Source: Clostridiaceae bacterium OM02-2AC
GTDB taxonomy: Bacteria > Bacillota_I > Bacilli_A > Erysipelotrichales > Erysipelotrichaceae
Reading direction: 5' to 3'
DNA: 64,000 nt
NCBI GenBank assembly: GCA_003481775.1
Contig: QULU01000014.1
Coordinates: 23,144-87,143 of the forward strand
The notes under the pieces were generated by a model. That model saw only the letters and a list, made by a program, of their open reading frames with translations, did no database searches and was not told the DNA's origin. Every line of letters begins with the position of its first letter. Position 1 is the stretch's first letter. The position numbers and the translations under genes are program-made. Shown one piece after another: positions 41,161 through 60,738 of the stretch.

Positions 41161-41175
41161 TAGGAGAAGCCTTAT

Positions 41176-41649
41176 ATGAAAAATATCGTTTGGACAAGAA
41201 TTGATGATCGTCTGATTCACGGACAGGTCATGACACAATGGATTCAGTATACCGAGGCGAATGAGGTGCTGATCATCGATGATGGAGTCGCAAAGGATTC
41301 CTTCCTGCAGATGGTTATGAAATCCAGTGTACCCGGCAAAATCAGTTTGAAGGTATTGAGCGTCAAGGATGCGATTGGATATTTGAATGAAGATGGAACG
41401 CATGAGAAAATTATCATTCTTGTAAAGACACCGGTCGTATTGGATGAGCTGAGCGATGCCGGTGTTCGTCTGAAGAGTATCAATGTCGGAGGAATCGGCG
41501 CGAAGGCCGGAAGAAAGCCGATGTTCAAAAACATTTCTGTCAGTGAAGAGGAAAAGGAAGCCTTCCGTAATCTGTTAAACAAGGGAATCAACGTGTTCCT
41601 GCGTGTCATCGTTACAGAACCGGAAGAGGATATCGCAAAATATTTATAG
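41176..41649 (+). CDS. PTS mannose/sorbose-family EIIB
   Basis: The protein has 157 residues. H15 in TRIDDRLIHGQVM is the phosphorylation site, and SINVGGIGAKAGRKPMFKN corresponds to the VNVGNMH block of module 1. It is separated from its EIIC and EIID by the dehydrogenase gene, an order also seen in other sugar-acid type systems. TAGGAGAAG precedes the ATG. It is closer to the EIIB at 60144 (VGGI block) than to those of module 1. Confidence 0.93.
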   Translation: MKNIVWTRIDDRLIHGQVMTQWIQYTEANEVLIIDDGVAKDSFLQMVMKSSVPGKISLKVLSVKDAIGYLNEDGTHEKIIILVKTPVVLDELSDAGVRLKSINVGGIGAKAGRKPMFKNISVSEEEKEAFRNLLNKGINVFLRVIVTEPEEDIAKYL

Positions 41650-41710
41650 AAAGGAAACGGTATACTGCCGCATATCAGAGGCGATCAGGTCGTATACCGG
41701 AGGGAACAGG

Positions 41711-42358
41711 ATGAATGAAATTGTAGAGTTTATCGCAAGGCACAAGGTAGTCGTTATCTGCCGCGGCTTGTATGAAGCAGAGCTGGTAAAAACAATCAAA
41801 GCATTGTATGCGGGCGGTATACGTATCGTGGAGGTAACCTTTGATCAGGCAGACCCCGATGCAATAGCGAAGACATGCTGCGCAATACGGACAATCAAAG
41901 AGCATTTTCCACAGATGAAGGTGGGAAGCGGCACAGTAACCTGTGTAGAGCATGTGCTTGCGACAAAGGAGGCAGGGGGAGAATTCTGTCTGTCACCGGA
42001 TGTGAATACGGAAGTGATTCAGGCGACAAAAAAAGCCGGACTGACATCCATTCCCGGCGCTATGACATCCACGGAGATTTTGCAGGCCCATCATGCCGGC
42101 GCGGATATTGTGAAAATATTCCCTGCAGGATGGCTGGGAGTATCCTATCTGAAGGATATCAAGGGGCCGATCAATCATGTGAAATTTCTTGCGGCAGCCG
42201 GTGTAAATGAGGATAACTTCAAAGACTATCTGAATGCCGGATACTGTGCCGCAGGGATCAGCGGACGCTTTATTGATCGTACCGTTATCGCTGAAGGAAA
42301 CTTTGCGGAGCTGACCCGCCGGGCAAGGATATTTACCGATATTGCCAAAGCCTGCTAA
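41711..42358 (+). CDS. KDPG/KHG-family aldolase
   Basis: The protein has 215 residues of the class I 2-keto-3-deoxy-6-phosphogluconate aldolase fold. The Schiff-base lysine is K135 in VKIFPAG, and the general acid-base Glu is E41 in VEVTF. GSGTV is the phosphate or keto-acid loop. Such enzymes split 2-keto-3-deoxy sugar-acid phosphates to pyruvate and an aldehyde phosphate. The ATG at 41711 has GGAGGGAACAGG; a frame from 41603 reaching into EIIB is rejected. Related copies are at 59470 and 63610. Confidence 0.88.
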   Translation: MNEIVEFIARHKVVVICRGLYEAELVKTIKALYAGGIRIVEVTFDQADPDAIAKTCCAIRTIKEHFPQMKVGSGTVTCVEHVLATKEAGGEFCLSPDVNTEVIQATKKAGLTSIPGAMTSTEILQAHHAGADIVKIFPAGWLGVSYLKDIKGPINHVKFLAAAGVNEDNFKDYLNAGYCAAGISGRFIDRTVIAEGNFAELTRRARIFTDIAKAC

Positions 42359-42363
42359 TCCAA

Positions 42364-42397
42364 CCCCGCCGCATAGCTGACAGTGGCGGGGCTTTTT
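42364..42397 (+). terminator. Strong terminator after the module 2 aldolase
   Basis: CCCCGCC (42364-42370) and GGCGGGG (42385-42391) form a perfect GC stem with a 14-nt loop, then CTTTTT. It separates the PTS operon from the two dehydrogenases. Confidence 0.92.
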
Positions 42398-42587
42398 GGG
42401 AAATAGATGCAGTTTACTTGTGCTGTAGGTGACAAGATTCGCATATGCAGTAAGCAGGTAGGCAGTGAAGCGTAATATGGAGGATAGAATGTGCTGGAGT
42501 ATCTGGCTGATAATAAAAAAGAGGATGTAAAACAATTTTCATGTAATATTTGTGCCCGTGCGCGAAGTGCGGGGAAGGGAGTTAAAA

Positions 42588-43766
42588 ATGAAGGCTATTG
42601 TATTTGGTGCGGGGAAAATCGCCCGTGGATTTATCGGGCAGCTGCTGTATCTCAGTAAGGCGGATATCACGTTTGTGGATATTGATCAACAGCTGGTGGA
42701 TCGTTTGAATAAGGATCAAAAATACCATGTGTATATTTTGGGAGATTCTTCATTGGACAGCGATGTTACAGGCTTTCAGGCTGTGCAGCTGGACGATGAA
42801 AAACGCATTGGCGCTGCTCTTATGGAGGCGGATATTGCCTTTGTTTCCGTAGGTGGGGCAAATCTGAAGTCACTGGGTGAGAAAATCGGAAGAATATATG
42901 AGGAAAACGGCATACCGAAAAAGCTGTTTAACTTTGTGACCTGTGAGAACTGGAGAAATGCAGGAGCATTTTTGTATGAGGGAATCACCACACAGCTCTC
43001 AGAAGAAAAGAAAACGGTGTTCGATCAGTATATCGGTGTGAATGAGGCAGTCATTATGCGCTCTGCAACACAGCCAAGTGATGCCCTAGCAAAGCAGGAT
43101 GCAACAGGTGTATGGGTGCAGAATTACTGGTATCTACCGATCAGTGCCGAGCATTTCAAGGGAGAGCTTCCGGCGATTCAGGATACGGAGCTGATGCAAA
43201 ACTTCGGAGATTTTCTAACCCAGAAAATGTATACCAATAATACAAGCAACGCCGTGATTGCCTATCATGGCTATCTGGCGGGCTATGAGCTGCTGGCACA
43301 GGCCGCAAACAGTCCCGAGGTTGCCGCCTTGCTGGATGAGGTATATGAGGAAATCAATCAGACGCTGGTGGCAGAGCTGCATGTCGATCCGCAACAGCAG
43401 AAGGCCTTTTCGGAAAAGGCAAGAGCAAAATATACAGACTGGACGATTGTCGATCGTGTAATCCGACATGGATGGGATCCGCTTCGCAAGCTGGGAGCGC
43501 AGGATCGGCTGATTGCACCGGCAAGAATGGCGCTGAACCATGGAATCTATCCCCGCGTGATGATTGAAACGATCGCAAAGGCACTGTTCTTTGATGAGGA
43601 AAGTGATGCATCTGCAAGGAAGCTGAAAGCTATGCGAAGAGAGCACGGGATTCCTTTTGTATTGCGGACGGTATGTGAACTGAATGAGCAGGAGCCGTTG
43701 TATCAGGAGGTGCTGAAGGCTGTAGACAGGATATGCAAGGAAGGGCTGGTCAAGGGACATGAGTAA
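42588..43766 (+). CDS. MtlD-like polyol/sugar-acid long-chain dehydrogenase
   Basis: The protein has 392 residues of the mannitol-1-phosphate dehydrogenase family. The Rossmann motif FGAGKIARGFIGQLL is at the start; an Asn-rich TNNTSNAVIAYHGYLAG segment near 217 carries the family's catalytic Lys/Asn/His region in divergent form. Members include MtlD, fructuronate reductase and tagaturonate reductase. The ATG at 42588 has GGAAGGGAG; the frame from 42552 is longer without a site. It overlaps the next, related gene by 8 nt. The substrate is not known. Confidence 0.83.
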   Translation: MKAIVFGAGKIARGFIGQLLYLSKADITFVDIDQQLVDRLNKDQKYHVYILGDSSLDSDVTGFQAVQLDDEKRIGAALMEADIAFVSVGGANLKSLGEKIGRIYEENGIPKKLFNFVTCENWRNAGAFLYEGITTQLSEEKKTVFDQYIGVNEAVIMRSATQPSDALAKQDATGVWVQNYWYLPISAEHFKGELPAIQDTELMQNFGDFLTQKMYTNNTSNAVIAYHGYLAGYELLAQAANSPEVAALLDEVYEEINQTLVAELHVDPQQQKAFSEKARAKYTDWTIVDRVIRHGWDPLRKLGAQDRLIAPARMALNHGIYPRVMIETIAKALFFDEESDASARKLKAMRREHGIPFVLRTVCELNEQEPLYQEVLKAVDRICKEGLVKGHE

Positions 43767-44808
43767 GAATGTAATCATCGGAGCCGGATTAAGCGGACGG
43801 GGATATCTCAATCGTCTGCTGTATCTGTCAAAGGAAGAAACCGTTTTTTTAGACCAGGATGAGCACCTGATCCAGCAGCTGCAACACAATCCCTCGTATA
43901 CGATTCGCTTCGGAAATGAGCGGGAACCGCTGAACGTGGATAATTACACAGCGTATACGATAACAGATGAGCGTGCGATAACAGCCATCGAACGCTCAGA
44001 TCGCATCTTTATCAGTGTCGGAGCCGATCACGTTGCAGAATTGCTGCCCTTTTTGCAGGCGGCATTAAAGCAGCGCGCCAGGCGTTCTTTGGACATCCTT
44101 GTTGCGGAAAATGGAATACAGCCATCCTCACCGCTTGCTGTATTGCGCAGTGATCCTAGGATACATCTGAGCGAAGCTGTCATATTTTGTACAACGCTGG
44201 GACAGCGTGATTCACTGGATATCTTCAGTGAAAATCTGGATCATCTTCCATATGACAGCATTGCACTGGGGCATGAGCTTTCCTTATACGGCTTTGTACA
44301 GGAAACACATTTTTCCGATTTACTGGAGCGTAAGATTTACACATATAACTGTATCAGTGCATGTATAGCCTATCTGGGCTATGAAAAGGGATACACGGAT
44401 TATGCCGAAGCTGCAAATGATGATGAAATTAGCGGGAAGATTGAGCGAATCGCAGACGTGATCAATCGTTGTATCACTGCGGTCTATAAGGTTTCCTTGC
44501 AGGAACAAAGGGAGTTTTCTAAAATGGCGATTCAAAAGTTTCAAAATCGAAATATCATAGACACCGTGGCACGCAATGTTCGTGATGTGGAAAGGAAGCT
44601 GAAGCCGGAGGAAAGAATTCGCAAGCCGTTGTCTTTGATGCAGGAACAGGGGGAATACAGCAGGGAGCTGCTGGAGGTTCTGGCAGCGGCACTTCGATAT
44701 GGCATGAAAACAAAAGAGCTTTCGCAGGATAGGGAAAAGCTGGTGGAGCTGTACACACAGGGGATGTGCGAAGCGTGGAAGCAGGTGGTGCATAGCTGCT
44801 GTAAATGA
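43759..44808 (+). CDS. Second MtlD-like long-chain dehydrogenase
   Basis: The protein has 349 residues. It starts MSKNVIIGAGLSGRGYLNRLLYLSK, the same nucleotide-binding pattern as its upstream neighbour, with YNCISACIAYLGYEKGYTDY in the place of the catalytic segment. It is about 40 residues shorter and strongly diverged. The two overlap by 8 nt, so they are made together and may form a heteromer or act in sequence on isomeric substrates; neither is proven. A terminator-like repeat follows about 110 nt later. Confidence 0.75.
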   Translation: MSKNVIIGAGLSGRGYLNRLLYLSKEETVFLDQDEHLIQQLQHNPSYTIRFGNEREPLNVDNYTAYTITDERAITAIERSDRIFISVGADHVAELLPFLQAALKQRARRSLDILVAENGIQPSSPLAVLRSDPRIHLSEAVIFCTTLGQRDSLDIFSENLDHLPYDSIALGHELSLYGFVQETHFSDLLERKIYTYNCISACIAYLGYEKGYTDYAEAANDDEISGKIERIADVINRCITAVYKVSLQEQREFSKMAIQKFQNRNIIDTVARNVRDVERKLKPEERIRKPLSLMQEQGEYSRELLEVLAAALRYGMKTKELSQDREKLVELYTQGMCEAWKQVVHSCCK

Positions 44809-48236: not shown

Positions 48237-50624
48237 CTATAACCTCTGTTCCAGCTGTCCCTGAATCTCCATCTGATAATTACGTATCACATCGCACAAA
48301 ACGGCGATTTCCTCCTGTGAAATGGAAAGGGTCATAAAATCCCGGATTTTCAACAAATTCGTTTTCATGATATGAAACAGCTCGGTATGCTCCATCATAA
48401 AGCTTTCCAAAAGATTGTAGCGAATTTTCTGCTTCTTCACACAGCAGTCTAGCATACAGGTACCATGGAACAGAAACTGTATAATAATATGATTGGAAAG
48501 CGGCAGATTGCATTCTGTGCAGATATTGAGCAGTACGCGATACAGGGCTTCATTGGATTTCGCAATATTGATGGTGGGGAAAGTTGCCTGAAAGCGCTGA
48601 AAGATGTCACTGCTCTGTCGCTCGTTTTTAAAGGTCAGGCTTTTGTCATTCAAGAATGTCTTGATTTTTTTCTTTCGATTCACCACATCGCTGAGCAGTG
48701 CCAGTAAATGCATGGTTTTCTGTGAAACTACCTCACTTGTCTCATAAAGCAGCGGCAGGGATACCGGATACAAAGAGAAGGACGGGATGTTCAAAGAGGA
48801 GATGATGGACTTGTCCAGCGTTGTCAAGGGCGGCTTATCACCGACAATCAAAACACCCTTGCCGATATCAATATATTTGATCAGCTTGTAGATTTTATCG
48901 GTAAACTCGTGAAAGTCATGTGTCTGATAATAGAGATTATAATCAAAGGAAAAGAAACAGCGGCTTCCCAGAATCTGATTCAGATGCTGGGCATAATTTT
49001 CCGCAAGACGCTCTCCGTGACAGACAATCAGTGTCATGATGGTATTCTGACTGATGGATTTCAATGCATAATAGATAAAATTGCGGATATAGCTTTTATA
49101 TACCTTCAGAAGGCTGATATTGAACTTGTTTTCCACTGTGCTGATCACATTGTCACTCAGCTCCTGAGAGTATGCGGTCTCCTTATAATCCAGATGCTCC
49201 AGCTGAAACTGATAGGCAAAGGTATTATCCAGCATGTGCTGAATCTGGATATACAGCTTGCTTAAAATCTGACGGTCATTCTTTAGCTTGGTTTTGGTGA
49301 ACAGCGGTGTGAGTGCCTGATAGACCTTGGATTGCATTTCTATGGAGGAGGAATCCAGAAGCTTTGTCCGTGTCATCAGGACATCCTCTTTTGCCTTTTC
49401 GATAATATTTTTCAGCTTTGCGGTTATGACAATGCTTGCATTGAGCTGTGTCTGTAACAGATTTTCCAGTGTTTCACATGGCTGATCCGGATAAATATCG
49501 ATGATTTCCGGAAGCAGCTGCGTCACCGTGATGCGGATATGATCCTCGAGGGAATTGTCTGCACTCTTGTTTTGAATCACATTCTTGGATATGTTTTCAT
49601 GTGTGATGACAATCGGCTCGTGGTTGGTAATGACACTGGAATATAGGTTGTTGGATAGGGAATAGACAATTTCATTGCGAAGCTGAAACAGGTTATAGGT
49701 ATAATCTGCGCTGAGAAAGGAAGCGATGGCATTTCCTGTTACCTTAATGCGGCAGTTCAGATTTACTGCCTCCTCCTGCAGAAAGGTCAGTACCAGCTCA
49801 ATCATTTCCTTGGTGGTGCGCTCCTTCAGATTCGGATATTGCGCGATGTAGGGGGTAAGCTGTGAGAAATAGGAAAAGTTTTCCACACCCTTATCTACCA
49901 GAAAAATCATGATGGGAACCGGCTTGCCTTCATTTGTGCACAAATTGTTGAGATCATTCCAGAAGCGGTAAATATCACTCTCCTGAAACTGCGTGAAAAT
50001 TTCCATGATAACCATGGAGATGCTGCGGTCAAGAAATAGCTGGCGCAGGCTTACAAGGCTTTCGGTAATCGAACGGTAATCAAAGGTGAAGCTTCTGCTT
50101 TTCTTTGGAATCCGTTTATTTTTGACAGCCAGCTCAAACAGCTTCTTGCAGAAGTATTTCTTACCGGAGCCTTTTTCCCCCTGCAGGGCAATGAGCAGCG
50201 GCTTGTTCTGGTTATAAAAGATCGCAGGGGTGATTTTACTGATTACGGGCGTCAGCGCTTCCTCATACCCGTTTCCGATGATATCCATTCCCTTTTTATA
50301 AAAGCTAGCGTCGCTTGCATCATAAACAAACAGGTTTTTCAGGCTATCCTTGCTGGGGATGACCTGCGGTATATGAGTGAAATGGTATTCACTCACGATG
50401 ACATCCTTGGATAGATAAAGCGTCGGTCTGCCCTCTACTTTGATTAGGAGAAGGTCATTGAACAGCTGATTCAGTATTCTGGAAACATTGGAACGATCCA
50501 GCTTCAGATCCAGTGCGATGTCAAACGCATTGCAGCGCTCAAAGCTGAACGATTTATCCGCCAGACTTTCACTGGTATATTCCCTGACCAGGTTCATAAT
50601 GGAATCGCGTCTTGTTTTTGCCAT
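48237..50624 (-). CDS. Second PRD regulator of LevR-like plan with inactivated AAA+ domain
   Basis: The protein has 795 residues. The winged helix (about 8-70, DRSNVSRILNQLFND) is close to that of the regulator at 35420. The AAA+-like part has Walker A GEKGSGKK at 149-156 (Lys for Ser/Thr), SMVIMEIF for Walker B and no GAFTGA loop. An EIIA-Man-like domain keeps its His in LIVCHGER, no EIIB-Gat domain is seen, and a PRD-like C-terminus ends the chain. The ATG at 50624 fits GGAGGG at 10 nt; the frame start at 50633 is too close. It faces the operon at 50962 and probably governs that and the related promoter at 58346-58402. Confidence 0.85.
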   Translation of the reverse strand: MAKTRRDSIMNLVREYTSESLADKSFSFERCNAFDIALDLKLDRSNVSRILNQLFNDLLLIKVEGRPTLYLSKDVIVSEYHFTHIPQVIPSKDSLKNLFVYDASDASFYKKGMDIIGNGYEEALTPVISKITPAIFYNQNKPLLIALQGEKGSGKKYFCKKLFELAVKNKRIPKKSRSFTFDYRSITESLVSLRQLFLDRSISMVIMEIFTQFQESDIYRFWNDLNNLCTNEGKPVPIMIFLVDKGVENFSYFSQLTPYIAQYPNLKERTTKEMIELVLTFLQEEAVNLNCRIKVTGNAIASFLSADYTYNLFQLRNEIVYSLSNNLYSSVITNHEPIVITHENISKNVIQNKSADNSLEDHIRITVTQLLPEIIDIYPDQPCETLENLLQTQLNASIVITAKLKNIIEKAKEDVLMTRTKLLDSSSIEMQSKVYQALTPLFTKTKLKNDRQILSKLYIQIQHMLDNTFAYQFQLEHLDYKETAYSQELSDNVISTVENKFNISLLKVYKSYIRNFIYYALKSISQNTIMTLIVCHGERLAENYAQHLNQILGSRCFFSFDYNLYYQTHDFHEFTDKIYKLIKYIDIGKGVLIVGDKPPLTTLDKSIISSLNIPSFSLYPVSLPLLYETSEVVSQKTMHLLALLSDVVNRKKKIKTFLNDKSLTFKNERQSSDIFQRFQATFPTINIAKSNEALYRVLLNICTECNLPLSNHIIIQFLFHGTCMLDCCVKKQKIRYNLLESFMMEHTELFHIMKTNLLKIRDFMTLSISQEEIAVLCDVIRNYQMEIQGQLEQRL

Positions 50625-50797
50625 ATATACCATTCCCTCCTATTTTTTAGTGTTATATTTATGCTGATAAATAACACACAAGGTAAAAAAATATTAACAT
50701 AATTTGGATAAAAAGTACATACTGGATAATATTTCGGACAATATGTAAATGTTTTCAACTATAAAAGGGATGTCCTGTACAAAGGATTGCTTTTTGC
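50625..50797. promoter_or_regulatory. Divergent region, regulator side
   Basis: GTGTTAT (50650-50656) and ATAACAC (50671-50677) are inverted repeats just upstream of the regulator's binding site and could serve autoregulation. The rest is AT-rich and shows no firm promoter. Confidence 0.4.
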
Positions 50798-50809
50798 TGT
50801 GACACACTA
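50798..50809 (+). promoter_or_regulatory. 12-bp upstream element shared with the 58.4-kb promoter
   Basis: TGTGACACACTA lies exactly 17 bp before the -35 box. The identical 12-mer at 58346-58357 lies at the same distance from its promoter. It is a likely activator site, most simply for the adjacent PRD regulator. Confidence 0.65.
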
Positions 50810-50826
50810 CTACTTTTCGTGTCAAT

Positions 50827-50854
50827 TTGACACTGTAATCGTTTTCAATATGAT
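50827..50854 (+). promoter_or_regulatory. Sigma-70 promoter with cre in the spacer, operon 50962-57170
   Basis: TTGACA (50827-50832), 16-bp spacer and TATGAT (50849-50854). Within the spacer TGTAATCGTTTTCA (50834-50847) fits the CcpA consensus TGWAANCGNTNNCA fully. Binding of CcpA there would block RNA polymerase when preferred sugars are present. Confidence 0.85.
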
Positions 50855-50961
50855 AGTAGGTGACAGCGGAATATGCGGATATAAAAAAAGCTGCAGGGAG
50901 GTGAAGCAGACAGCAACGCATGTTTGATACATAGTTATGAACTGAAAAAGAAAGGAGAACT

Positions 50962-52017
50962 ATGAAAAAAGCAAAAGCATGGGTAATAGAGGGAAAAGAT
51001 GAAGTAGCTGTACGCAAGCTGGATATCGTACGGCCCGGGGATTATGAGGTATTGTTTAAAACAGAGGTATGCTCTTTGTGTACCGTTGATCGAAGAACCT
51101 ACAAGGGAACCAGAAACTACGGCTATCCGTTTCTCGGGGGACATGAGTGCAGTGGGACAATCATAGAAATTGGCAGAGGAGTTGTCAATGTAAAGCCGCA
51201 AGATAAGGCGATTTTTACCTCCGGATACTGCAATCAGTGTGAGCTGGACCGTTCCGGAAGAGGTACGCAGTGCAATCGTAAAAAAGAAATGCCAAAGCGT
51301 GCACAGCTGGACGGAAACATTCTGGGGGGAGGCTTATGTGAATATCTGGTGATACCGGCGTGGCAGATTATCCGTATGAGTGATGATGTGGATATGCGTC
51401 ATGCGGCACTTACGGAGCCTCTTGCATGCTGTATTCACAGTATTCGCAAGGCGAGAATCAAATTCGGTGATACAATCGTCATTATCGGTATGGGCATCAT
51501 GGGCTATTTTCATCTGAAGCTGGCACAGATGAGCGGTGCTCGTATCATCGTCAGTGAGACAGATGAAAAAAAACGCGAAACTGCCCTGCGGGAGGGGGCT
51601 GCCTATGCCCTTGATCCTACGCAGTGTGATGTTGGTGAAGCAGTGAAGAGGCTCACGGATGGCTTGGGGGCAGATGCGGTAATCAATACGATTCCTTTCA
51701 AGGAGGTGTGGCAGCAGGCCATTGATATGCTGGCGCCTTATGGCAGACTGATTGCCTACAGCTCACAGAACAGCGCTGAGTTGATCGGTGTGGATTTTGG
51801 AAAGGTACATAGCCGTGAAATAGAATTTATCGGAACGCTGAATCCGACGATTGAAGATAATCAGATGGCGGTCAAGCTGATCAGCTATCATATGATCGAT
51901 ATGGAAAAGGTAATTGATCGGGAATTTAGCTTTGCGCAGGGAAAAGAGGCCTTTGACTATGCGTGCAAGCCCGGCGTTTATCGCGTTATGATCAATTACG
52001 GAAAGGAAGAGAACTGA
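50962..52017 (+). CDS. Zinc-dependent medium-chain dehydrogenase
   Basis: The protein has 351 residues. The catalytic zinc site is suggested by C37 and the GHE motif (H61, E62), and structural Cys occur in GYCNQCELDRSGRGTQC, fewer and differently spaced than the usual four-Cys lobe. The NAD motif GMGIMG is near 173. It belongs with sorbitol/threonine-type dehydrogenases (MDR). As first gene of a catabolic operon, it likely oxidises a hydroxyl of the incoming sugar or sugar phosphate. AAAGGAGAA precedes the ATG. The substrate is unknown. Confidence 0.87.
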   Translation: MKKAKAWVIEGKDEVAVRKLDIVRPGDYEVLFKTEVCSLCTVDRRTYKGTRNYGYPFLGGHECSGTIIEIGRGVVNVKPQDKAIFTSGYCNQCELDRSGRGTQCNRKKEMPKRAQLDGNILGGGLCEYLVIPAWQIIRMSDDVDMRHAALTEPLACCIHSIRKARIKFGDTIVIIGMGIMGYFHLKLAQMSGARIIVSETDEKKRETALREGAAYALDPTQCDVGEAVKRLTDGLGADAVINTIPFKEVWQQAIDMLAPYGRLIAYSSQNSAELIGVDFGKVHSREIEFIGTLNPTIEDNQMAVKLISYHMIDMEKVIDREFSFAQGKEAFDYACKPGVYRVMINYGKEEN

Positions 52018-52018
52018 T

Positions 52019-52846
52019 ATGCTGGTAACATTAACGGAAATCCTAACAAAGGCAAAGCAGGAAAATTATGCGGTACCTGCCTGCAACATTGATAATGAGC
52101 ATAATCTGCGCGCCGCAATCGAGGCCGCGGAAGAAATGAATTCCAGTATTATCCTGAATACGACACCGGTTGCGAATCCTGATCTGGTGAGCTTTGGACA
52201 TCTGGCAACAGATCTTGCCAGACGTTCCTGTGTAAAGGTTGCACTGAATCTGGATCACGGAAAGAGCTTTGAGGATTGTCTGCTCGGTATCCGTGCAGGC
52301 TACACCTCCATCATGATTGACCGCTCCCTTCTGCCCTTTGAGGAGAATGTCAGGGAGGTTAAGGAAATGGTACGCATCTGTCATGCGCTGGGAATCAGTG
52401 TGGAGGCAGAGCTTGGCCATGTAGGGGTCGGAGAGCAGTATCATACGGATGGTCATCAGGCGTTTACCCGTGTAGAGGAGGCTGTAGCGTTTGTAGAACA
52501 GACAGGCGTCGATGCGCTAGCTGTCGCAATCGGTACGGCACACGGTGTATACAAAGGAAAGCCAGAGCTGCATTTTGATCTTCTGCAGGAGTTGAAGGAG
52601 GCACTTAAAATACCGCTGGTTCTTCATGGCGGCAGCGGCACCGGAGATGAAAATCTGGCACGCTGTGCAAAAGAGGGAATCAATAAAATCAATCTGTCCA
52701 ATGATTTGAAACGCAGTGCGATTGAAAATCTGATCAAGGAGGATTTGAGCGGTAATGCCGTATATCAGCTCTATCCGCTGCTTGCACAGGGCTTTAAAAA
52801 TAAAATCAAGCACTATATCCGACTGTTTGGCTGTGAGGGCAGGTAG
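52019..52846 (+). CDS. Class II ketose-bisphosphate aldolase
   Basis: The protein has 275 residues of the fructose/tagatose-bisphosphate aldolase family. Family residues are present: LNLDHG (D79 catalytic, H80 metal ligand), EAELGHVGV, GTAHGVYKG and the phosphate loop LHGGSGTG. It cleaves a ketose phosphate to dihydroxyacetone phosphate and an aldehyde. It starts 1 nt after the previous stop. As a second aldolase type alongside the KDPG family in this island, it implies a different cleavage route. Confidence 0.9.
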   Translation: MLVTLTEILTKAKQENYAVPACNIDNEHNLRAAIEAAEEMNSSIILNTTPVANPDLVSFGHLATDLARRSCVKVALNLDHGKSFEDCLLGIRAGYTSIMIDRSLLPFEENVREVKEMVRICHALGISVEAELGHVGVGEQYHTDGHQAFTRVEEAVAFVEQTGVDALAVAIGTAHGVYKGKPELHFDLLQELKEALKIPLVLHGGSGTGDENLARCAKEGINKINLSNDLKRSAIENLIKEDLSGNAVYQLYPLLAQGFKNKIKHYIRLFGCEGR

Positions 52847-53192
52847 TATAGGACATGCACCAGTGAAGGAAATCACACGGTGTGAGAACAGAAGCTATAG
52901 AAGGGAAGCGTGGTGCAGTCACATAGCCTACGGTATCAATATCGCGTATATCCTGAAAGCATATAGCGTGCATTTGATGGTATGCGTAATCTGACTGCAT
53001 CAGGACGGCTATGCATAAGAAAGGCTTGAAACACGATAATAAAAAGCACGGCATGGAGACGATTTGAGCGTCTATGATGAATATGCGGATGTACACGGAC
53101 ATGAATGTTGAATTGCATATTGAAAGGCTTGTAAAGGAACGTTCAGAAATACATAGACAGATAAAGAAGTATGTGAGAGGAGGAGATTGCTT
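52847..53192. other. Gap within the 51-57 kb operon
   Basis: No gene, strong promoter or terminator is seen in these 346 bases. Short open frames on both strands lack binding sites. The gap is odd in an otherwise compact operon and may be the site of a deleted gene. Confidence 0.35.
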
Positions 53193-54116
53193 ATGAAGCT
53201 ATTGGTGACATCAAAGTCTTTTGGTAAGCTGCGTGATGAGCCGATTCGCCGATTAAAGGAAGCAGGCTTTACGGTGTTTTTAAATGAGAAGGGCAGACTG
53301 CTCAGCGAAGAGGAAATGGTGGAGGCCATTCAGGGAATGGACGCTGTTATTTTGGGGACGGAGGTTTTTAACCGCAATGTGATCGACCATGCGGATAATC
53401 TGAAAATCGTGTCGCGATACGGTGTGGGGCTGGATAAAATCGATGTGGACTATCTGGAGGAAAAGGGGATTGCATTGCGAATTGCACGCTTTGCGAATAC
53501 CAATTCCGTTGCGGATCACACAGTGGGGCTCATGCTATCACTCTGTCACAATATCACACGCAGCGATGCCAATATCCGTGCTCATGTGTGGAAAAAGCCG
53601 GTTGCGAAGGATTTGTACCAAAGTACGGTTGGTATACTGGGACTGGGAGCCATTGGCAAGGCAGTTGCACGAAGATTAAAGGGCTTTGATTGTAAAATAC
53701 TTGCGTTTGACAGTGTTTATGACGAAGAATTTGTGAAGGAATACGGCATACAAAAGGCAGCTGTGGATGAAATCTTAAGAACTGCTGATTTCCTGACGCT
53801 GCATCTTCCCGCACTTCCGGAGTTCTCTCCGCTATTGGATGCGGAAGCCTTTTTAAAGCTGAAGAAGGATGCAGTCATCATCAATACGGCCCGGGCAAAG
53901 CTGATTGATCAAAATGCTTTGTATGAGGCATTGAAAAACGGACAGCTTTATGGCTATGGAAGTGATGTACATTTCATGGAGCCCGGCTTTGACGAAGAAC
54001 TGATCGCCAGTGAGAAAACTGTACTGACACCACACATCGCCGCTAGCAGCGCTGGTGCAATTCAGCGCATGTCGGATATCGCTGTCGAGAATGTGCTGGA
54101 ATATTTCGGATCGTAG
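53193..54116 (+). CDS. D-2-hydroxyacid dehydrogenase, phosphoglycerate-dehydrogenase-like
   Basis: The protein has 307 residues, starting MKLLVTSKSFGKLRDEP. It has the NAD motif GLGAIGKAVARRL, catalytic Arg in INTARAKLID, Glu in VHFMEPG and His in LTPHIA. It is a close paralogue of the enzyme at 40231 in module 2 over the whole length. GGAGGAG precedes the ATG. It may act on a related 2-keto/2-hydroxy acid in the sugar route encoded here. Confidence 0.87.
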   Translation: MKLLVTSKSFGKLRDEPIRRLKEAGFTVFLNEKGRLLSEEEMVEAIQGMDAVILGTEVFNRNVIDHADNLKIVSRYGVGLDKIDVDYLEEKGIALRIARFANTNSVADHTVGLMLSLCHNITRSDANIRAHVWKKPVAKDLYQSTVGILGLGAIGKAVARRLKGFDCKILAFDSVYDEEFVKEYGIQKAAVDEILRTADFLTLHLPALPEFSPLLDAEAFLKLKKDAVIINTARAKLIDQNALYEALKNGQLYGYGSDVHFMEPGFDEELIASEKTVLTPHIAASSAGAIQRMSDIAVENVLEYFGS

Positions 54117-54291
54117 AAAACGAAGAGGACAGCACGCGTTCATGCATAATAAAAAGTATGTACTGCCTGGCGGATGTTACTACTGTATAAGCGAGCAGAA
54201 TGTGCTCGTCAGGGCATGAACCGCGCGTGGTGCAGCGCTCGAAAACGAAGAGCTATCTTGGGACTGCATAAGAGAAGGAGAGAAGAGGGCT

Positions 54292-54999
54292 ATGAAGATT
54301 GATGAAAAGCTGGAAAAGCTGAAGCAGTTTGATACACCGTCCATCACGAATGTGGTGGCAACCTATCCGGATAAGGAATACTGTCTGGGGCTTTATCATC
54401 CATGGCAGGGGAAATGGTATACGGATGAACGTGCAAGGGTTATGTATCCAGAGCTGGGAAGAACCGTGGGGTATGCGATTACCTGTACGTATGGTCTACC
54501 AGATTCCAATTACAACCGATTGAAATTCGGTGATGTACTAAAGGCTGTGGCTGCGGTGGGAAAACCGGTGGTACTGATTGTGAAGCAGGATATGCCGGAG
54601 GAAATCAAATGCCGCAACGGACTGCTTGGCGGAAACATGATGACGGCACTGCGCTCTGCCGGCTGTGTCGGTGTGATCAGTGACGGTCCCAGCAGGGATG
54701 TGGATGAGATACGGCCTTTGCAAATGCAGTATGTATTAAGCGGAGTAACAGCGGGACATGGAAAATGGGCGGTGCAGTCCATCAATACCGGAGTAGAGGT
54801 TTTCGGTATGCAGGTATGTCCCGGCGAAATCATTCATATGGATGAAAACGGTGCTGTGAAGTTTCCGGCAGCTGCCATCGATCAGGTGATTGAGAAGGCG
54901 ACGTACCTTCAGCAATTTGAAGAAAACAGACAACGGAGGATGAGGGAAACCGATGATGTAGAGGAACTGATTAAAATCATGTCCGGTTTCTATGATTAG
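54292..54999 (+). CDS. RraA-like family protein, putative aldolase
   Basis: The protein has 235 residues. It has the RraA/HMG-CHA aldolase pattern: GGNMMTALRSAGCVGVISDG followed by SRDVDEI, where the Asp and Arg are the expected metal and substrate residues. Family members cleave 4-hydroxy-4-methyl-2-oxoglutarate-like 2-keto acids by class II chemistry, or inhibit RNase E in enterobacteria; the latter is unlikely here. In this setting a pyruvate-aldolase or decarboxylase-like role on a keto-acid intermediate is plausible. GGAGAGAAGAGG precedes the ATG. Confidence 0.8.
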   Translation: MKIDEKLEKLKQFDTPSITNVVATYPDKEYCLGLYHPWQGKWYTDERARVMYPELGRTVGYAITCTYGLPDSNYNRLKFGDVLKAVAAVGKPVVLIVKQDMPEEIKCRNGLLGGNMMTALRSAGCVGVISDGPSRDVDEIRPLQMQYVLSGVTAGHGKWAVQSINTGVEVFGMQVCPGEIIHMDENGAVKFPAAAIDQVIEKATYLQQFEENRQRRMRETDDVEELIKIMSGFYD

Positions 55000-55002
55000 C
55001 CT

Positions 55003-56157
55003 ATGGAAAATTTTATCTATGACATACCGACAACGGTATATTTCGGAAAGGGACAGCTGCATCAGCTGGAGAGAATCATCAGGGAATATGGAAAACGGGT
55101 TCTTCTTGTATACGGAGGGGGAAGCATCAAACGAAACGGCATCTATGATGAAGTCGTTTTGCAGCTGCAAAAGGCGGGAAGAGAATATGTTGAATTAGGA
55201 GGAGTGGAGCCCAATCCATCACTGTATACCGTGGAAAAGGGCGTGGCTGTATGCCGCAGAGAACAGGTAGATGTGATTGTGGCAATTGGCGGAGGAAGTG
55301 CGATTGATTGTGCGAAGGTTGTTTCCGCAGCTGTTTGCAGTGATCAAACACCATGGGAGCTGGTGCTTCATCCCAAGGAGATCAAGCGGGCATTACCTGT
55401 CATCGCGGTGCTGACGATTGCGGCTACCGGCAGTGAAATGGACCATATCGCCGTTATTACAAATCCGGAAACGAAGGAGAAAATCGGTACGCGCAATCCG
55501 CTGCTTCGACCAAAAGCGGCAATCCTTGATCCGACCTTCACCTTCAGCGTCAGTGCGTATCAGACTGCCTGTGGTGTTGCGGATATTATGAGCCATACAA
55601 TGGAATCCTATTTCGCAAGAGAGGAAGCTGAGCTGCAGGATCGCTTTGCGGAAGGGATTTTGAAGGTATGTATCAAATATGGGCCAATCGTTTTGCAGGA
55701 GCCTACGCATTATGAGGCACGAGCGAATCTCATGTGGGCGGCAAGCTGGGCAATCAACGATATGCTGAAGCTTGGGCATATGACACAGTGGAGCGTACAT
55801 CCAATGGAACATCCGCTCAGTGCTTTTTATTCCGTTACGCATGGAGAGGGACTGGCAATTCTGACACCGCATTGGATGGAGTATGTATTGAGTGAGGATA
55901 CGGTGGATAAGTTTGCACGCTTCGCCAGGGAAATCTGGCAGGTGGAGGAAAAGGATGTGTGGGATATGGCGCGAGAGGGAATCGAGCGGCTGCGTGGCTT
56001 TTATGAACAGCTGCATCTGCGCTCATCCTTAGGGGAGCTGGGCATTGATGAAACACACCTTGATGCCATGGCTATGGATGCCGCAAGACAGACAGTGAAC
56101 GGCTATGTGTCATTGTCCGCTGAGGATGTGAAGAATATCTATCGAAACAGCTTGTAA
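55003..56157 (+). CDS. Iron-containing alcohol dehydrogenase, BdhA/YugJ type
   Basis: The protein has 384 residues of the type III ADH family. The NAD(P) loop is GGGSAIDCAK near 90-100, and metal ligands are in VADIMSHTMESYF (Asp, His), HPMEHPLSA and VTHGEGLAIL (His). Relatives are butanol dehydrogenases that reduce aldehydes to alcohols. Here it would reduce an aldehyde released by an aldolase and balance NADH. It starts 3 nt after the previous stop without a clear binding site, so translation is probably coupled. Confidence 0.9.
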   Translation: MENFIYDIPTTVYFGKGQLHQLERIIREYGKRVLLVYGGGSIKRNGIYDEVVLQLQKAGREYVELGGVEPNPSLYTVEKGVAVCRREQVDVIVAIGGGSAIDCAKVVSAAVCSDQTPWELVLHPKEIKRALPVIAVLTIAATGSEMDHIAVITNPETKEKIGTRNPLLRPKAAILDPTFTFSVSAYQTACGVADIMSHTMESYFAREEAELQDRFAEGILKVCIKYGPIVLQEPTHYEARANLMWAASWAINDMLKLGHMTQWSVHPMEHPLSAFYSVTHGEGLAILTPHWMEYVLSEDTVDKFARFAREIWQVEEKDVWDMAREGIERLRGFYEQLHLRSSLGELGIDETHLDAMAMDAARQTVNGYVSLSAEDVKNIYRNSL

Positions 56158-56222
56158 AGTGTTTTATAATAAGGGCAGGGAAAGGAGATAAGGATGCACG
56201 ATGTGTCCTTACAGGTTATCGT

Positions 56223-57170
56223 ATGAAAATTGTAGTATTGGATGGGTATACGGAAAATCCGGGAGATCTTGATTGGAACGGGTTTGCGGAACTGGGTGAG
56301 GTGACGGTGTATGATCGCAGTGAGGAAGCACAGGCAGCTGAGCGAATTCAGGATGCAGACGCTGTGATCGTAAATAAGGTGCGCATGACAAGAGAGCTTA
56401 TGGAAGCACATCCCAAACTGCGCTATATCGGCGTGCTGGCAACGGGATATGATGTAGTGGACATAGAGGCTGCAAGGGATCTCCATATTGCGGTTACCAA
56501 TGTTCCGGGATATGGTACGGATACGGTTGCACAGTATGCAATCGCACTCCTCTTGGAGGTAACGTCCAGAATCGGTCACCATGCGGCTCGTGTAAAAGAA
56601 GGGGAATGGGCGCGCAATGCGGACTGGTGCTTTTGGGAATACCCTTTGCTGGAGCTGTCCGGCAGAACGATGGGGATCATCGGTTATGGACGAATTGGCA
56701 GAAGGGTCGGAGAAATTGCCCAGGCATTGGGAATGAAGATATTGTTTCATGATGCCTTTGCCCAGGAGGACGGCAGCGGTGAAAAGGTATCGCTTGTCGA
56801 GCTGCTGCAGCGAAGTGATGTTGTAAGCCTGCATTGTCCACTTACGAAGGAGAATGATTCGCTGATAAACAAAAAGACGCTGGCGATGATGAAGTCGCAT
56901 GCAATTCTAATTAACAATGCCAGAGGTAAGCTCATCAATGAATGTGATCTTGCGCAGGCATTGCAGGATGGTACGATTTATGCGGCTGCACTGGATGTAG
57001 TGAGAGAAGAACCGATTCGCAGTGATAATCCGCTGCTGGAATGTGATAACTGCCTGATTACTCCCCACATCTCGTGGGCCAGCAAAGAGGCGAGAAGCAG
57101 AATCATGGATACTGCCGCTGAAAATCTGGCAGAGTTTCTACGTGGAAATACGCAGAATCGGATTGTGTAA
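56223..57170 (+). CDS. D-2-hydroxyacid dehydrogenase, glycerate/hydroxypyruvate-reductase-like
   Basis: The protein has 315 residues. NAD motif GYGRIGRRVGEIAQALG, catalytic Arg in INNARGKLIN, Glu in VVREEPI and His in ITPHISWASKEAR. The last block is typical of glycerate dehydrogenases (HprA). This group differs from the two SFGK-type enzymes at 40231 and 53193. It might reduce hydroxypyruvate or tartronate semialdehyde formed by an aldolase. The binding site is weak. A strong terminator follows. Confidence 0.88.
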   Translation: MKIVVLDGYTENPGDLDWNGFAELGEVTVYDRSEEAQAAERIQDADAVIVNKVRMTRELMEAHPKLRYIGVLATGYDVVDIEAARDLHIAVTNVPGYGTDTVAQYAIALLLEVTSRIGHHAARVKEGEWARNADWCFWEYPLLELSGRTMGIIGYGRIGRRVGEIAQALGMKILFHDAFAQEDGSGEKVSLVELLQRSDVVSLHCPLTKENDSLINKKTLAMMKSHAILINNARGKLINECDLAQALQDGTIYAAALDVVREEPIRSDNPLLECDNCLITPHISWASKEARSRIMDTAAENLAEFLRGNTQNRIV

Positions 57171-57190
57171 ATACGTTAGTATATTGAATA

Positions 57191-57227
57191 AATCATTGCT
57201 TATGAAAACATAGCAGTGATTTTTTTA
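57191..57227 (+). terminator. Terminator of the 51-57 kb operon
   Basis: AATCA-TTGCT-ATG and CAT-AGCAG-TGATT form a stem of about 12 bp with minor mismatches and a 4-nt loop, then seven T. Confidence 0.85.
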
Positions 57228-57307
57228 ATTAAGTCATTCGCTTGCTCAAAGCTTTACTGCTTTTCCATGCCATCTTAAGCTAATTTTTTATAAAAAGTGG
57301 TTATTCA

Positions 57308-57820
57308 TTTTTGATCATAATTATTATTAGCCATCTTATGATTGATGTTTGCAGTGTTTTTCTTAAGAGTAAATATAAAAATAGGAAATGTATGCTTTTC
57401 TGTATTGATCAGTTTATACATTTTCTTATTATATCTTGTTGCTCATTCTATATTTTATTTAAAGATATATTTAATGTACATATTTTGGTTACTCTGTTAG
57501 CTGTGTTAGTTTTAATAAAGCCTGTAAGTATTTTTATTACATTATTTTTTAAAAGTATCTTTAAAAATGAAAAAGATAGGCATGAAATTAAAAATTGGCA
57601 GATACATAGGATATTTGGAAAGGTTCATAATATTTTTACTGTGTCTTTTTGATTCTATTTCAACCATCGGTTTTATTCTAGCAGCAAAAACATTGGTAAG
57701 ATATAAGGATATCAATACTAATGAAGACAATTTCAAGAAAAATATCTCATTGGAACATTGCTAAGTACGATAGGTGCCTTATGTTGTTTTGCATTGGTAA
57801 AATATAGCGAACGATTTTAA
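57308..57820 (+). pseudogene. Decayed DUF3307 membrane protein gene
   Basis: Three consecutive frames give one protein-like path. The first has IIISHLMIDVC and FCIDQFIHFLIIS (57311 to about 57590). The second frame has KIGRYIGYLERFIIFLL and IGFILAAKTLVRYKDI (about 57590-57735). The third has EKYLIGTLLSTIGAL and stops at TAA 57818-57820. These blocks match the C-terminal half of DUF3307 membrane proteins, whose partner in many genomes is SatD. The N-terminal half is absent, and two frameshifts separate the pieces, so this is a relic. Base composition is much more AT-rich than the neighbours. Confidence 0.65.
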
Positions 57821-58345
57821 ATGGATTTTTTGCTATGTATATCATTCCAGATTGTCTTATTAGGAAATGCATCAACTGTGCTTCTCTTAACTATAAGCAA
57901 AGAAGCCCTCCATACAGACAGATCACACAATAGAGCAGGACTTCCTGTAAGCTAAAATCATGAATAAACTATTTTTACTGTTTGATATTTAAACGTGGAC
58001 ATGAAAGCAAAAATATAACAGAGAGATTCACAAAAGATATCTTACAATAGTAAAACTTAATGTATAGTAACCGGGTGAAAAACTATTTCAGATTTCACTC
58101 TTTTTTCTATTTTCATAATATCTGCAGCATGTCCAAAAAAAGCTGCTTGATTTTAGAAAATATGCTCTTTTTTCGTGTCATATTCGTGCAATGTAATACA
58201 CACTACAGATTCAATACTGTGCTATTTTATGCCGAAAATAACACAGTGACAGTATGTAACCGCTTTTATGCTGTAGTTTTCTGGCTTTCTATGTCGTTTT
58301 ATATGAAAACAAGTCGATAAAATGGAAAAACAGCTATGAAAAAAG
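57821..58345. other. AT-rich non-coding stretch between the two modules
   Basis: No supported gene is seen; an 86-codon frame at 58060-58320 has no binding site or family likeness. GTGAAA (58074-58079) and TTTCAC with a T-run (about 58094-58108) make a possible terminator. Confidence 0.4.
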
Positions 58346-58357
58346 TGTGACACACTA
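58346..58357 (+). promoter_or_regulatory. 12-bp upstream element, copy 2
   Basis: TGTGACACACTA is identical to 50798-50809 and also ends 17 bp before TTGACA. Confidence 0.65.
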
Positions 58358-58374
58358 GCCTTAAAATCGATCGT

Positions 58375-58402
58375 TTGACATCGAAAGCGTTTTCAATATG
58401 AT
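58375..58402 (+). promoter_or_regulatory. Sigma-70 promoter with cre in the spacer, operon from 58473
   Basis: TTGACA (58375-58380), 16-bp spacer and TATGAT (58397-58402). The spacer contains CGAAAGCGTTTTCA (58382-58395), a CcpA box with one mismatch at the first base. Both hexamers, the spacing and the cre position equal those of the 50827-50854 promoter. Confidence 0.85.
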
Positions 58403-58472
58403 GGGTAGTGTAAGGCAGCGGAAGCTATGCTGCAGGATGTGAAAGAAAGGGATTGAGAGTCAGGTGATAAAT

Positions 58473-59456
58473 TTGAAAAAAACCGCAGTGATCAATATTA
58501 CAAGCTTCGGCAGGGAATTTCCGGAGCATCTTCAAGAATTGGAAGAACGTGTGGGGCCGGTCGATAAAATGCTGCTGCGTGCAGATATGGATGGGAAAAC
58601 ACTGGCACAGCAGTTAAAGGGATATACCTATGTACTGCTTGGGAATTATCCAACCTTCGATGAAGAGTTTTTCTCCAGGAATACAGATGTAAAGCTGATC
58701 GCCCGTCATGGTATCGGCTTCAACAATGTAGATCTGGAAAGCTCGAGAAAGTATGGGGTGTATGTAACCCATATTCAAAACTATGTAGAGCTGGATGCTG
58801 TTGCAGAGCAGGCGGCAGCGCTTCTTATGGCCGTATCAAAAAATGTGGTGATTGCCAATCAAAAGGTACATCAGGGTGACTGGAATAAGGATCGTCAGGA
58901 AATCATGGGCTTTCAGCTGCGGGGGAAAACCTGCGGGGTGATTGGCTGCGGACATATCGGTACACGCTTTGCGACCATCATGAAATATGGATTTCAAAAC
59001 CGCATACTGGCATATGATCCGTACGCGGACAGGGAAAGCGTGATGGCAGAGGGGATTCAGCTCTGTGATTTGGACACGTTGCTGAGAGAATCGGACTTTA
59101 TCAGTCTGCATGCAAATCTGAGCGAAGACAGCAAGCACCTCATCAATGCACAAGCACTGGCAAAAATGAAGGACAACGCCATCCTCATCAATACGGGGCG
59201 CGGAGGCCTTGTGGATGAAACAGCCTTACTGTGCGCATTGCAAAGTGGAAAGCTGTTCGGCTATGGCGCAGATGTTGCAGCACAGGAGCCGATGACGGCT
59301 GATAATCCGCTGCTTACATGTGAGCGGGTAACCATCACACCGCATTCCGCCATCTATAACTACACCTGCATGAAGAACATGAACCGCAAGGTCATGGAAG
59401 ACATCTACTGCATGCAAAGAGGGGAACGACCGGTGGAAATCATCAATGGTTTATAG
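58473..59456 (+). CDS. D-2-hydroxyacid dehydrogenase
   Basis: The protein has 327 residues from the TTG at 58473, which has AGGTGA 5 nt upstream; a GTG at 58464 is the alternative and adds three residues. NAD motif GCGHIGTRFATIM, catalytic Arg in INTGRGGLVD, Glu in AAQEPM and His in ITPHSA. RHGIGFNNVD matches the substrate-loop block of the family. It differs from the SFGK-type paralogues and is the first gene of PTS module 3B. It probably acts on the 2-keto or 2-hydroxy acid form of the imported sugar, which is inference. Confidence 0.87.
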   Translation: MKKTAVINITSFGREFPEHLQELEERVGPVDKMLLRADMDGKTLAQQLKGYTYVLLGNYPTFDEEFFSRNTDVKLIARHGIGFNNVDLESSRKYGVYVTHIQNYVELDAVAEQAAALLMAVSKNVVIANQKVHQGDWNKDRQEIMGFQLRGKTCGVIGCGHIGTRFATIMKYGFQNRILAYDPYADRESVMAEGIQLCDLDTLLRESDFISLHANLSEDSKHLINAQALAKMKDNAILINTGRGGLVDETALLCALQSGKLFGYGADVAAQEPMTADNPLLTCERVTITPHSAIYNYTCMKNMNRKVMEDIYCMQRGERPVEIINGL

Positions 59457-59469
59457 AAAGGATACGTAT

Positions 59470-60123
59470 ATGAACAGACAGGACACAATACAAAAGATTA
59501 AAGAGGAAAAAATAGTCGTCATTACAAGGGGGATTTATGGTGAGGATCTGATGAAGCTGGCAGAGGCTCTGTTCCAGGGTGGCATCCGCTGCTTTGAAAT
59601 TACTTACGATCCAGCTGATCCCAATACCTGCATACGGGTGAAAGAGAATATTCAACAGCTGCATGAGCGCTTTGGTGATGCGCTGTATCTGGGCATCGGC
59701 ACTGTGCTGACCAAAGAACAGGTACACAACGCCAAGGAGGCCGGCGCCAGATTTATCGTTTCTCCCAACTTTGATGAGGAAATTGTCAAGGAAACACTGG
59801 CTCTGGACATGGTCTCCATGCCGGGCTGTATGTCACCGACGGAAATTGTTGCGGCAGATAAAGCCGGAGCTGATTTCATCAAGTTGTTTCCGGCAGGAAC
59901 ACTGGGCTTAAAATACTGCAAGGATATCTATGCGCCGCTGCACCATGTTAACTACATCGCAACCGTAGGTGTTACAGAGGAAACATTTGTACAATATCTT
60001 GATCTGGGCTTTGCCGGAGCAGGCATCAGCTCCCAGCTGGTAGATAAGAAATGCCGCGAAGAAGGCAATTATGAAGAACTGACAAGACGGGCACAGCGAT
60101 TTGTGGAAATCGCAAAGCAATAG
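59470..60123 (+). CDS. KDPG/KHG-family aldolase
   Basis: The protein has 217 residues. The Schiff-base lysine is K138 in FIKLFPAG, the acid-base Glu is E43 in FEITYD, and GIGTVL is the binding loop. It starts MNRQDTIQKIKEEKIVVITRG; the frame from 59446 overlaps the previous gene and lacks a site. It is paralogous to the enzyme at 41711 (both have an ITRG/ICRG start and a TRRA-RF-IAK-type end). It would release pyruvate from a 2-keto-3-deoxy acid phosphate. Confidence 0.9.
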   Translation: MNRQDTIQKIKEEKIVVITRGIYGEDLMKLAEALFQGGIRCFEITYDPADPNTCIRVKENIQQLHERFGDALYLGIGTVLTKEQVHNAKEAGARFIVSPNFDEEIVKETLALDMVSMPGCMSPTEIVAADKAGADFIKLFPAGTLGLKYCKDIYAPLHHVNYIATVGVTEETFVQYLDLGFAGAGISSQLVDKKCREEGNYEELTRRAQRFVEIAKQ

Positions 60124-60143
60124 TAGAAAGAAGGAAAACTATT

Positions 60144-60629: not shown

Positions 60630-60738
60630 CCGGGTATTCAATAGTATTCGATCACATGGAGGTGATGATCATATCATAGGTGTTTTACAAGAGTAACGTA
60701 TGTAGTAGATGAATTGACAATGAAAAGGAGGAAATTTC

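Follow-up and report, generated by a model that had tools for sequence, protein, structure and literature searches.

PRD-containing activators are divided, in the accessible text of PMC10864463, into an MtlR/LicR type and a LevR type, of which the latter uses sigma-54, and the same text places the LevR site at -125. The accessible text of PMC6615313 describes a search for such proteins made only in species that bear sigma-54. For MtlR of B. subtilis, the accessible part of PMC3217849 describes a site that reaches near the -35, argues for a class II mode of activation and places a cre over the -10; for class I activators it gives sites between -61 and -91.

Here we analyze a 64-kb stretch of DNA from a Firmicutes-type bacterium (the window, meaning the whole of that stretch) in which two operons carry the same promoter module. 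Common origin would account for this shared switch: both are probably parts of a single sugar-acid operon, which is found intact in relatives. An unusual regulator probably acts on the switch, one that appears to have exchanged the alternative sigma factor of its family, sigma-54, for the housekeeping one.

Two copies of a promoter module

A first-pass annotation of the window had proposed that TGTGACACACTA-N17-TTGACA-N16-TATGAT occurs at 50798-50854 and again at 58346-58402. Direct reading and extraction by script found the module in both places. In copy 1 the 12-mer TGTGACACACTA (50798-50809, plus strand) is followed after 17 bp by TTGACA (50827-50832) and after another 16 bp by TATGAT (50849-50854); in copy 2 the same spacings separate the 12-mer (58346-58357), TTGACA (58375-58380) and TATGAT (58397-58402). 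The two promoters, P1 (50827-50854) and P2 (58375-58402), both on the plus strand, are of the sigma-A type and match the consensus at 11 of 12 positions, with a perfect TTGACA and 5/6 matches to TATAAT. The annotation had also held that the bases of the gap differ between copies, and indeed the 17-bp gaps agree at 3/17 positions; the 16-bp spacers between -35 and -10 agree at 12/16. The exact 12-mer occurs twice in the 64-kb window, both strands included, as copies 1 and 2. As a test of chance, the 36 pairs formed by nine promoter-like window sites were compared for in-register identical runs within the 60 bases that precede the -35. The longest run was 12 for the copy 1/copy 2 pair and 6 for the runner-up pair, and in about 19,900 random 60-mer pairs no run exceeded 11, indicating that the identity of the modules is not due to chance. 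We treat the 12-mer as a candidate regulator site. Copy 1 matches a core, GTGTNNCACA, from 50797 with one mismatch, while the copy 2 site (58344-58357, plus strand, AGTGTGACACACTA) contains a 13-bp odd palindrome, AGTGTGACACACT, which copy 1 fits less well on its left side.

Each promoter spacer also holds a predicted CcpA (cre) site. Measured against the consensus TGWAANCGNTNWCA, as quoted in the accessible text of PMC10864463, the P1 spacer contains TGTAATCGTTTTCA (50834-50847, plus strand) with zero mismatches and the P2 spacer contains the cre-like CGAAAGCGTTTTCA (58382-58395, plus strand) with one; both spacers thus match the consensus by sequence. When the two control regions were mono-shuffled, matches with at most one mismatch arose in 0.023 of cases. 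Among nine relative regions (see below), a cre within one mismatch was found only in L001 and L006, in both outside the spacer. Placement in the spacer is thus particular to the window.

The likeness of the two control regions extends far past the module. Their local alignment scored 84, while 100 shuffles gave at most 44, and the long alignment takes in the leader stretch 3' of the -10 as well as a distal element at 50641-50681 (no strand assigned). This regulator-proximal element contains an inverted repeat, GTGTTAT...ATAACAC, and the half-site map marks it as a possible autoregulatory operator; GTGT/ACAC words also lie near the regulator start in relatives. Two stretches like it are present in the control region of operon 2 (58167-58248, no strand assigned), at 58167-58203 and about 58221-58248. 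Alignment of 58161-58215 with 50641-50690 gave a score reached by 0/2000 shuffles; in the long alignment it is the second stretch that falls opposite the distal element. In both control regions the distal elements lie about 100-180 bp upstream of the site. Since the alignment continues beyond the module, the two control regions are probably diverged duplicates of one region.

P1 precedes operon 1 (50962-57170, plus strand), which was delimited from open reading frames, Pfam and NCBIfam and is transporter-free. It encodes, in order, a Zn-dependent alcohol dehydrogenase, a class II ketose-bisphosphate aldolase, a 2-hydroxyacid dehydrogenase, an RraA-like protein, an Fe-dependent alcohol dehydrogenase and a second 2-hydroxyacid dehydrogenase. 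P2 precedes operon 2 (58464-64000 and past the window end, plus strand; start codon GTG 58464 or TTG 58473), assigned from open reading frames, Pfam and a gene order as in relatives: a 2-hydroxyacid dehydrogenase, a KDPG/KHG aldolase, the EIIB, EIIC, EIID and EIIA of a mannose-family PTS, a 165-aa protein with no Pfam match over cutoff, and a second aldolase. Operon 1 probably ends at an intrinsic terminator, a hairpin followed by a T run (57190-57226, plus strand). The RNA fold of 57180-57230 has an energy of -16.9 kcal/mol and a z of -6.1, matched by 0/200 shuffles; the hairpin is absent from the list of a separate terminator scanner. Read-through from operon 1 as the sole route to operon 2 was rejected because of this strong hairpin and its T run. 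Between the operons, 57227-58135 is about 0.9 kb of AT-rich DNA with no convincing gene, which may be the scar of a rearrangement that split the operon. An Rfam search of 48-59 kb returned 0 matches, as did a search of a phage collection with 50700-58700 in near mode.

A LevR-like regulator and the sigma-54 question

The adjoining gene (48237-50633, minus strand) was identified as that of a LevR/DagR-like PRD regulator from Pfam, NCBIfam, alignments, AlphaFold and Foldseek. Its frame opens at 50633, though homologues begin at Met 50624, the likely start and the one that the annotation had given. The protein has an N-terminal HTH, a degenerate AAA+-like domain, an EIIA-Man-like domain (His539) and a C-terminal PRD (His723). 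Pfam recognized the PRD only (PF00874, 28.6 bits, cutoff 23, one PRD), with no match to an EIIA family or to PF00158 (Sigma54_activat), and the NCBIfam equivalog DagR (NF047795) matched weakly, its 94.2 bits lying below the curated cutoff of 1400. A search of the PDB by sequence found no significant match (best E 0.03). The AlphaFold model (pLDDT 83.8, pTM 0.55) resembled mostly AAA+ proteins in Foldseek, including the activators NtrX (E 1.2e-5) and LuxO (TM 0.56 by target length), with small-domain matches to 3gx1 (TM 0.89 by target length) and 3gdw (0.80), both of which we take to be EIIA-like; 3gx1 also gave a weak profile match at residues 530-631. The EIIA-Man-like region aligns with P0028, LevR according to one source, whose record lists PF03610. 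The PRD occupies residues 700-784 of 798, leaving no room after it for the EIIB-Gat-like and EIIA-Mtl/Fru-like domains of the MtlR/LicR type, which are therefore excluded.

Alignment with P0028 shows that the GAFTGA loop is deleted and that the P-loop reads GEKGSGKK, with no Ser/Thr after the Lys. GAFTGA and standard Walker A patterns are absent from all 18 fetched homologues, a set that is no survey since it was gathered by likeness to the window regulator. All 21 aligned sequences, P0028 among them, have the PRD His723; the EIIA-like His539 is kept in only 15/21 homologues.

The stricter -24/-12 pattern, TGGYAYR-N4-TTGCW, occurs in neither operon control region; its sole match in the window is at 31979. 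The minimal box, GG-N10-GC by itself, was found in the copy 1 region at 50784 and twice in the copy 2 region, both times downstream of the -10, and a looser scan added one sigma-54-like word at 33207, inside a gene. Sigma-54 control of both operons was rejected on the grounds that neither has a box of the stricter pattern, the bare GG-N10-GC at 50784 being the one candidate, and that the AAA+ motifs are lost. Upstream of the homologues, no sigma-54-like match was found in 17/18 fetched loci, and the lone match (L008) lies inside the first gene. A search for PF04552, the sigma-54 DNA-binding domain, gave no match in 6/12 genomes with such regulators, which is soft evidence of absence inasmuch as it draws partly on draft genomes.

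Other LevR-like proteins were compared for the same features. Five further LevR-like regulators were fetched from Breznakia pachnodae (Erysipelotrichaceae; genome G001, the source of locus L001), three with GAFTGA and all three of these with -24/-12-like boxes nearby. A fourth (L057) lacks an exact GAFTGA but has Walker A, with a box behind the gene; the fifth (L061) has neither motif and its only box-like match lies inside its own gene. In the window itself, about 17 kb from the regulator, the LevR-like protein of 29217-31949 has GAYTGA, Walker A and a PF00158 match of 129.6 bits. Its gene lies within a mannose-family PTS cluster (28648-34106), where the next EIIB gene, at 32008, is immediately preceded by a sigma-54-type -24/-12 box, TTGGCACG-N4-TTGCT (31978-31994). 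A second LevR-like regulator of the window (35420-37843) still matches PF00158 (32.3 bits, cutoff 20.2) and has lost GAFTGA. It is divergent from a PTS operon (38181-44808) that includes hydroxyacid dehydrogenase, KDPG-type aldolase and mannitol-dehydrogenase-like genes, and its control region contains TTTACACA-N10-TGTGTAAA at 38053-38078 and TTGTGT-N16-TACAAT at 38092-38119. This regulator was considered as the binder of the module and rejected: its own control region has GTGT/ACAC half-sites (7 seen versus 2.0 expected) but aligns with neither promoter beyond shuffles (scores 24 and 29).

With moderate confidence, we favor the idea that an entire Firmicutes branch of PTS activators derived from LevR/DagR has switched from sigma-54 to the housekeeping sigma and shares a GTGT/ACAC operator, with stages of the loss side by side in the window. 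The same idea would arrange the three proteins as a graded series: 29217-31949 intact and with a box, 35420-37843 with GAFTGA lost, and 48237-50633 with the loop deleted and the domain unrecognized. A search of the open-access literature found no recognizable description of a sigma-54-free LevR branch, which, being limited to open access, is weak evidence of novelty.

Gene order and the site in relatives

A profile search of genome contigs with an alignment of 16 regulator homologues yielded 11 loci. The regulator is sporadic: a homologue was found in 3/272 genomes of the G001 family (single protein query, E <= 1e-60), in 7/315 genomes of its order (alignment query) and, in overlapping samples of 397 genomes each from the families of G273 and G276, in one genome apiece at E <= 1e-100, already known in each case. 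On plasmids, tblastn with the regulator matched 6 Enterococcus records at 20-35% identity. The closest homologues (83-94% identity) were covered as protein sequences only; to the nine relatives used here the window regulator is 24-40% identical, and L001 is the most similar locus (40%).

These nine closest loci are L001-L007, L034 and L035, of which L004, L005 and L034 are cut by contig ends, leaving six with enough flank. In five of the six (L001, L002, L003, L006 and L035), hadh3-eda1-EIIB-EIIC-EIID-EIIA, adhZn and fba form one run, divergent from the regulator homologue. The run also includes feADH in four of the five and a hadh2 counterpart in one (L035). The sixth, L007 of Enterococcus raffinosus, has the PTS part, and adhZn, fba and feADH are absent. 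Because the single run is present in 5/6 flanked loci, genes from both window operons belong together in one operon elsewhere, which lends support to the proposal in the annotation that both would form one regulon and one pathway. Four relatives were examined further (L001, L002, L006 and L035), and in each adhZn is preceded by a gene for a small protein and fba is followed by an extra gene of similar length; the extra gene of L001 encodes a HAD-type hydrolase (PF08282). At the corresponding place in the window, 3' of the class II aldolase, there is a gene-free gap (52847-53186), and tblastn of the relatives' extra genes against the window from 44001 on found no match.

When the relatives were aligned at the -35, GTGTNNCACA appeared at nearly the same position. 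We scored it, with at most one mismatch and 16-21 bp to TTGAC, in the 11 regulator-linked regions. It was present in 9/11, namely the two window promoters and 7/9 relatives (L002 and L003 being close kin), always 17-20 bp before TTGAC, against a shuffle rate of 0-0.004 per region. The two misses are L034, with no site match, and L001, where TACACACTA lies exactly 17 bp from TTGACA and the left half is poor, hence a downstream half-site only. On both strands of the window the scored site matches at copies 1 and 2 and nowhere else. Across 20 loci (339 kb, some overlapping) there were 10 matches: 7 at regulator promoters, 1 the same site in the overlapping locus L056, and 2 in loci that had been fetched by the pattern.

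We then searched 35 genomes, nine of them taken as carriers of such regulators, for exact GTGTNNCACA-N17..20-TTGAC. This gave 11 matches in 10 genomes. Five are intergenic, all at regulator-divergent promoters (G157, G273, G274, G275 and G276), and the other six fall within open reading frames of 100 codons or more. In four of the nine carriers (G001, G090, G132 and G277) the exact pattern is not at the promoter; among the 26 genomes outside the carrier set, G007 has a distant homologue of the regulator. The annotation had named the adjoining PRD protein as the nearest candidate for the activator, and this assignment gains support from a site that recurs beside regulator homologues at a nearly constant distance from the -35, with no other intergenic match in the genomes searched. 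It had also held that a 12-mer common throughout the genome without promoter context would speak against its proposal. Among the family genomes this is not so, as the 12-mer-N17-TTGACA was found within one mismatch in 0/272 genomes, carriers included; the exact wording is thus the window's own and the GTGTNNCACA core is what is shared. The exact module likewise had 0 matches in viral_contigs. Specificity rests on the motif together with its -35 spacing, since the bare 13-base palindrome is not enriched genome-wide: AGTGTNACACACT with two mismatches had fewer matches in 12 genomes than its reversed control.

GTGT/ACAC half-sites are enriched in all 11 regions (5-11 seen versus 1.4-2.2 expected from base composition) and in all nine control regions of distant homologues (5-10 versus 0.9-2.1). 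In the latter, GTGTNNCACA occurs within one mismatch in 7/9 and with the -35 spacing in 0/9. Four other gene-free stretches of the window, 28273-28647, 31950-32007, 34879-35419 and 57171-58135, were not enriched (1, 0, 2 and 4 seen versus 2.7, 0.4, 3.9 and 4.9 expected). In one distant homologue's control region (L038 of G132, 2638-2683), the exact 12-mer lies within a long inverted repeat, TTTTAGTGTGTCA...TGACACACTAAAA, and sits 28 bp, not 17, from a TTGACA. In L035 of G157 (2800-2823) an inverted repeat, AACACACTA-N6-TAGTGTGTT, takes in the site and lies directly 5' of the -35, an arrangement that suggests two dimers or a tetramer.

Proposed mechanism, rivals and known systems

We are fairly confident, from sequence comparison, in the following reading: sigma-54-free LevR-type PTS activators would bind near -60 and be combined with CcpA repression, and the two control regions would be paralogous parts of one sugar/sugar-acid PTS regulon that is split in two here. 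A regulator dimer on the site would recruit sigma-A RNA polymerase in the manner of a class I activator. With the transcription start assumed 7 bases after the -10, the site centers at -59.5 to -61.5 in the six promoters that have both the site and a scored -10. Regulator activity would be set by PTS phosphorylation of the PRD His723, perhaps also of the EIIA-like His539, and would drop when substrate is lacking. When a preferred sugar is present, CcpA on the spacer cre would block the polymerase, and the extra GTGT/ACAC half-sites by the regulator's own start codon would provide for autoregulation. The second control region would most likely stem from duplication of the regulator-operon intergenic region during a rearrangement of gene blocks. 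Two relatives count against this reading: L001, the most similar locus, with its half-site only, and L034, with no match. So do the lack of the 12-mer module (at most one mismatch) in the 272 family genomes, the four carriers with no exact pattern at the promoter, the nine distant control regions that have half-sites but never the -35 spacing, the relatives' want of a cre in the spacer, the GG-N10-GC at 50784, the incomplete conservation of His539 and the low identity (24-40%) to the nine relatives.

Both -35 hexamers are perfect, which is unusual for an activator-dependent promoter, so that repression or simple enhancement is possible. In one such scheme the regulator would bind as a repressor or dual regulator on strong sigma-A promoters, for example by looping the -60 site to distal GTGT/ACAC elements, and would be released by the PTS substrate. 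The promoters' TTGACA and near-consensus -10, the distal elements that both control regions carry farther upstream and a palindrome, GTGTCAATTTGACAC, over the copy 1 -35 would all suit this scheme. However, the accessible text of PMC10864463 presents PRD regulators that have a DNA-binding domain as activators, GTGTCAATTTGACAC was not found in copy 2, and in the nine of 11 regions that have the site it lies upstream of the promoter and not over it. We consider repression unlikely.

That the identity of the 12-mers is a mere trace of the duplication, with no function, might be supposed from how well the two regions align past the module, but divergence has affected the gap and spared the 12-mer, the -35 and the cre/-10 part, and distant relatives carry the core site at almost the same distance; this we regard as most improbable. 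Another transcription factor, unlinked or of a different family, might instead bind the 12-mer, the adjoining PRD regulator being incidental. Palindromic sites of the TGTG type are common among regulators, which leaves some room for this idea. Yet the site tracks the regulator across loci, the search of 35 genomes found it at no other intergenic place, and half-sites are enriched also beside distant homologues that face different operons, making such a factor very unlikely.

Three points go beyond the first-pass annotation: the cre sites, the probable duplication of the control regions past the module, and a regulator layout that would predict a sigma-54 promoter, to which there is no good match here. 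The activator reading predicts an operator, a regulon and, through the linked mannose-family PTS, an inducer route for a member of a family taken as sigma-54-dependent. It would also provide a convenient system for studying how an enhancer-type activator becomes an ordinary recruiter, with proteins of the ancestral and the derived type in the same 64 kb. If it is true, the GAFTGA loop should be looked for in LevR-like regulators before they are assigned a sigma-54 regulon.

The locus can be set beside several known systems. Catabolite repression by CcpA/cre is matched by a cre consensus within the promoter of a PTS-linked operon; there is no difference in kind, and the spacer position is common to both window promoters and absent in the nine relative regions. 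TyrR and Rhodobacter NtrC are relatives of sigma-54 activators that work with sigma-70. They are like the window regulator in their AAA+ activator fold, the loss of GAFTGA and the use of housekeeping polymerase, but they are proteobacterial and are not known to carry PRD or PTS control. With the LevR-type proteins (LevR, ManR and CelR, the class being that of the accessible text of PMC10864463, and DagR by NCBIfam), the regulator shares an N-terminal HTH, an AAA+-like center, EIIA-Man-like and PRD domains and a place beside a mannose-family PTS operon. It differs from them in having no GAFTGA loop, an altered Walker A and no Sigma54_activat match, in a sigma-A-type promoter in place of -24/-12, and in a site near -60, whereas that of LevR is given in the same text at -125. 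At PmtlA of B. subtilis, as described in the accessible part of PMC3217849, an MtlR/LicR-type PRD regulator acts at a sigma-A promoter overlapped by a cre, as is proposed for the window; the MtlR site, however, reaches near the -35 at a mannitol PTS operon. The window differs in the position of its site, near -60, in its mannose-family PTS and in a protein constructed like LevR. In short, the window regulator resembles LevR in build and linked PTS but MtlR in promoter type.
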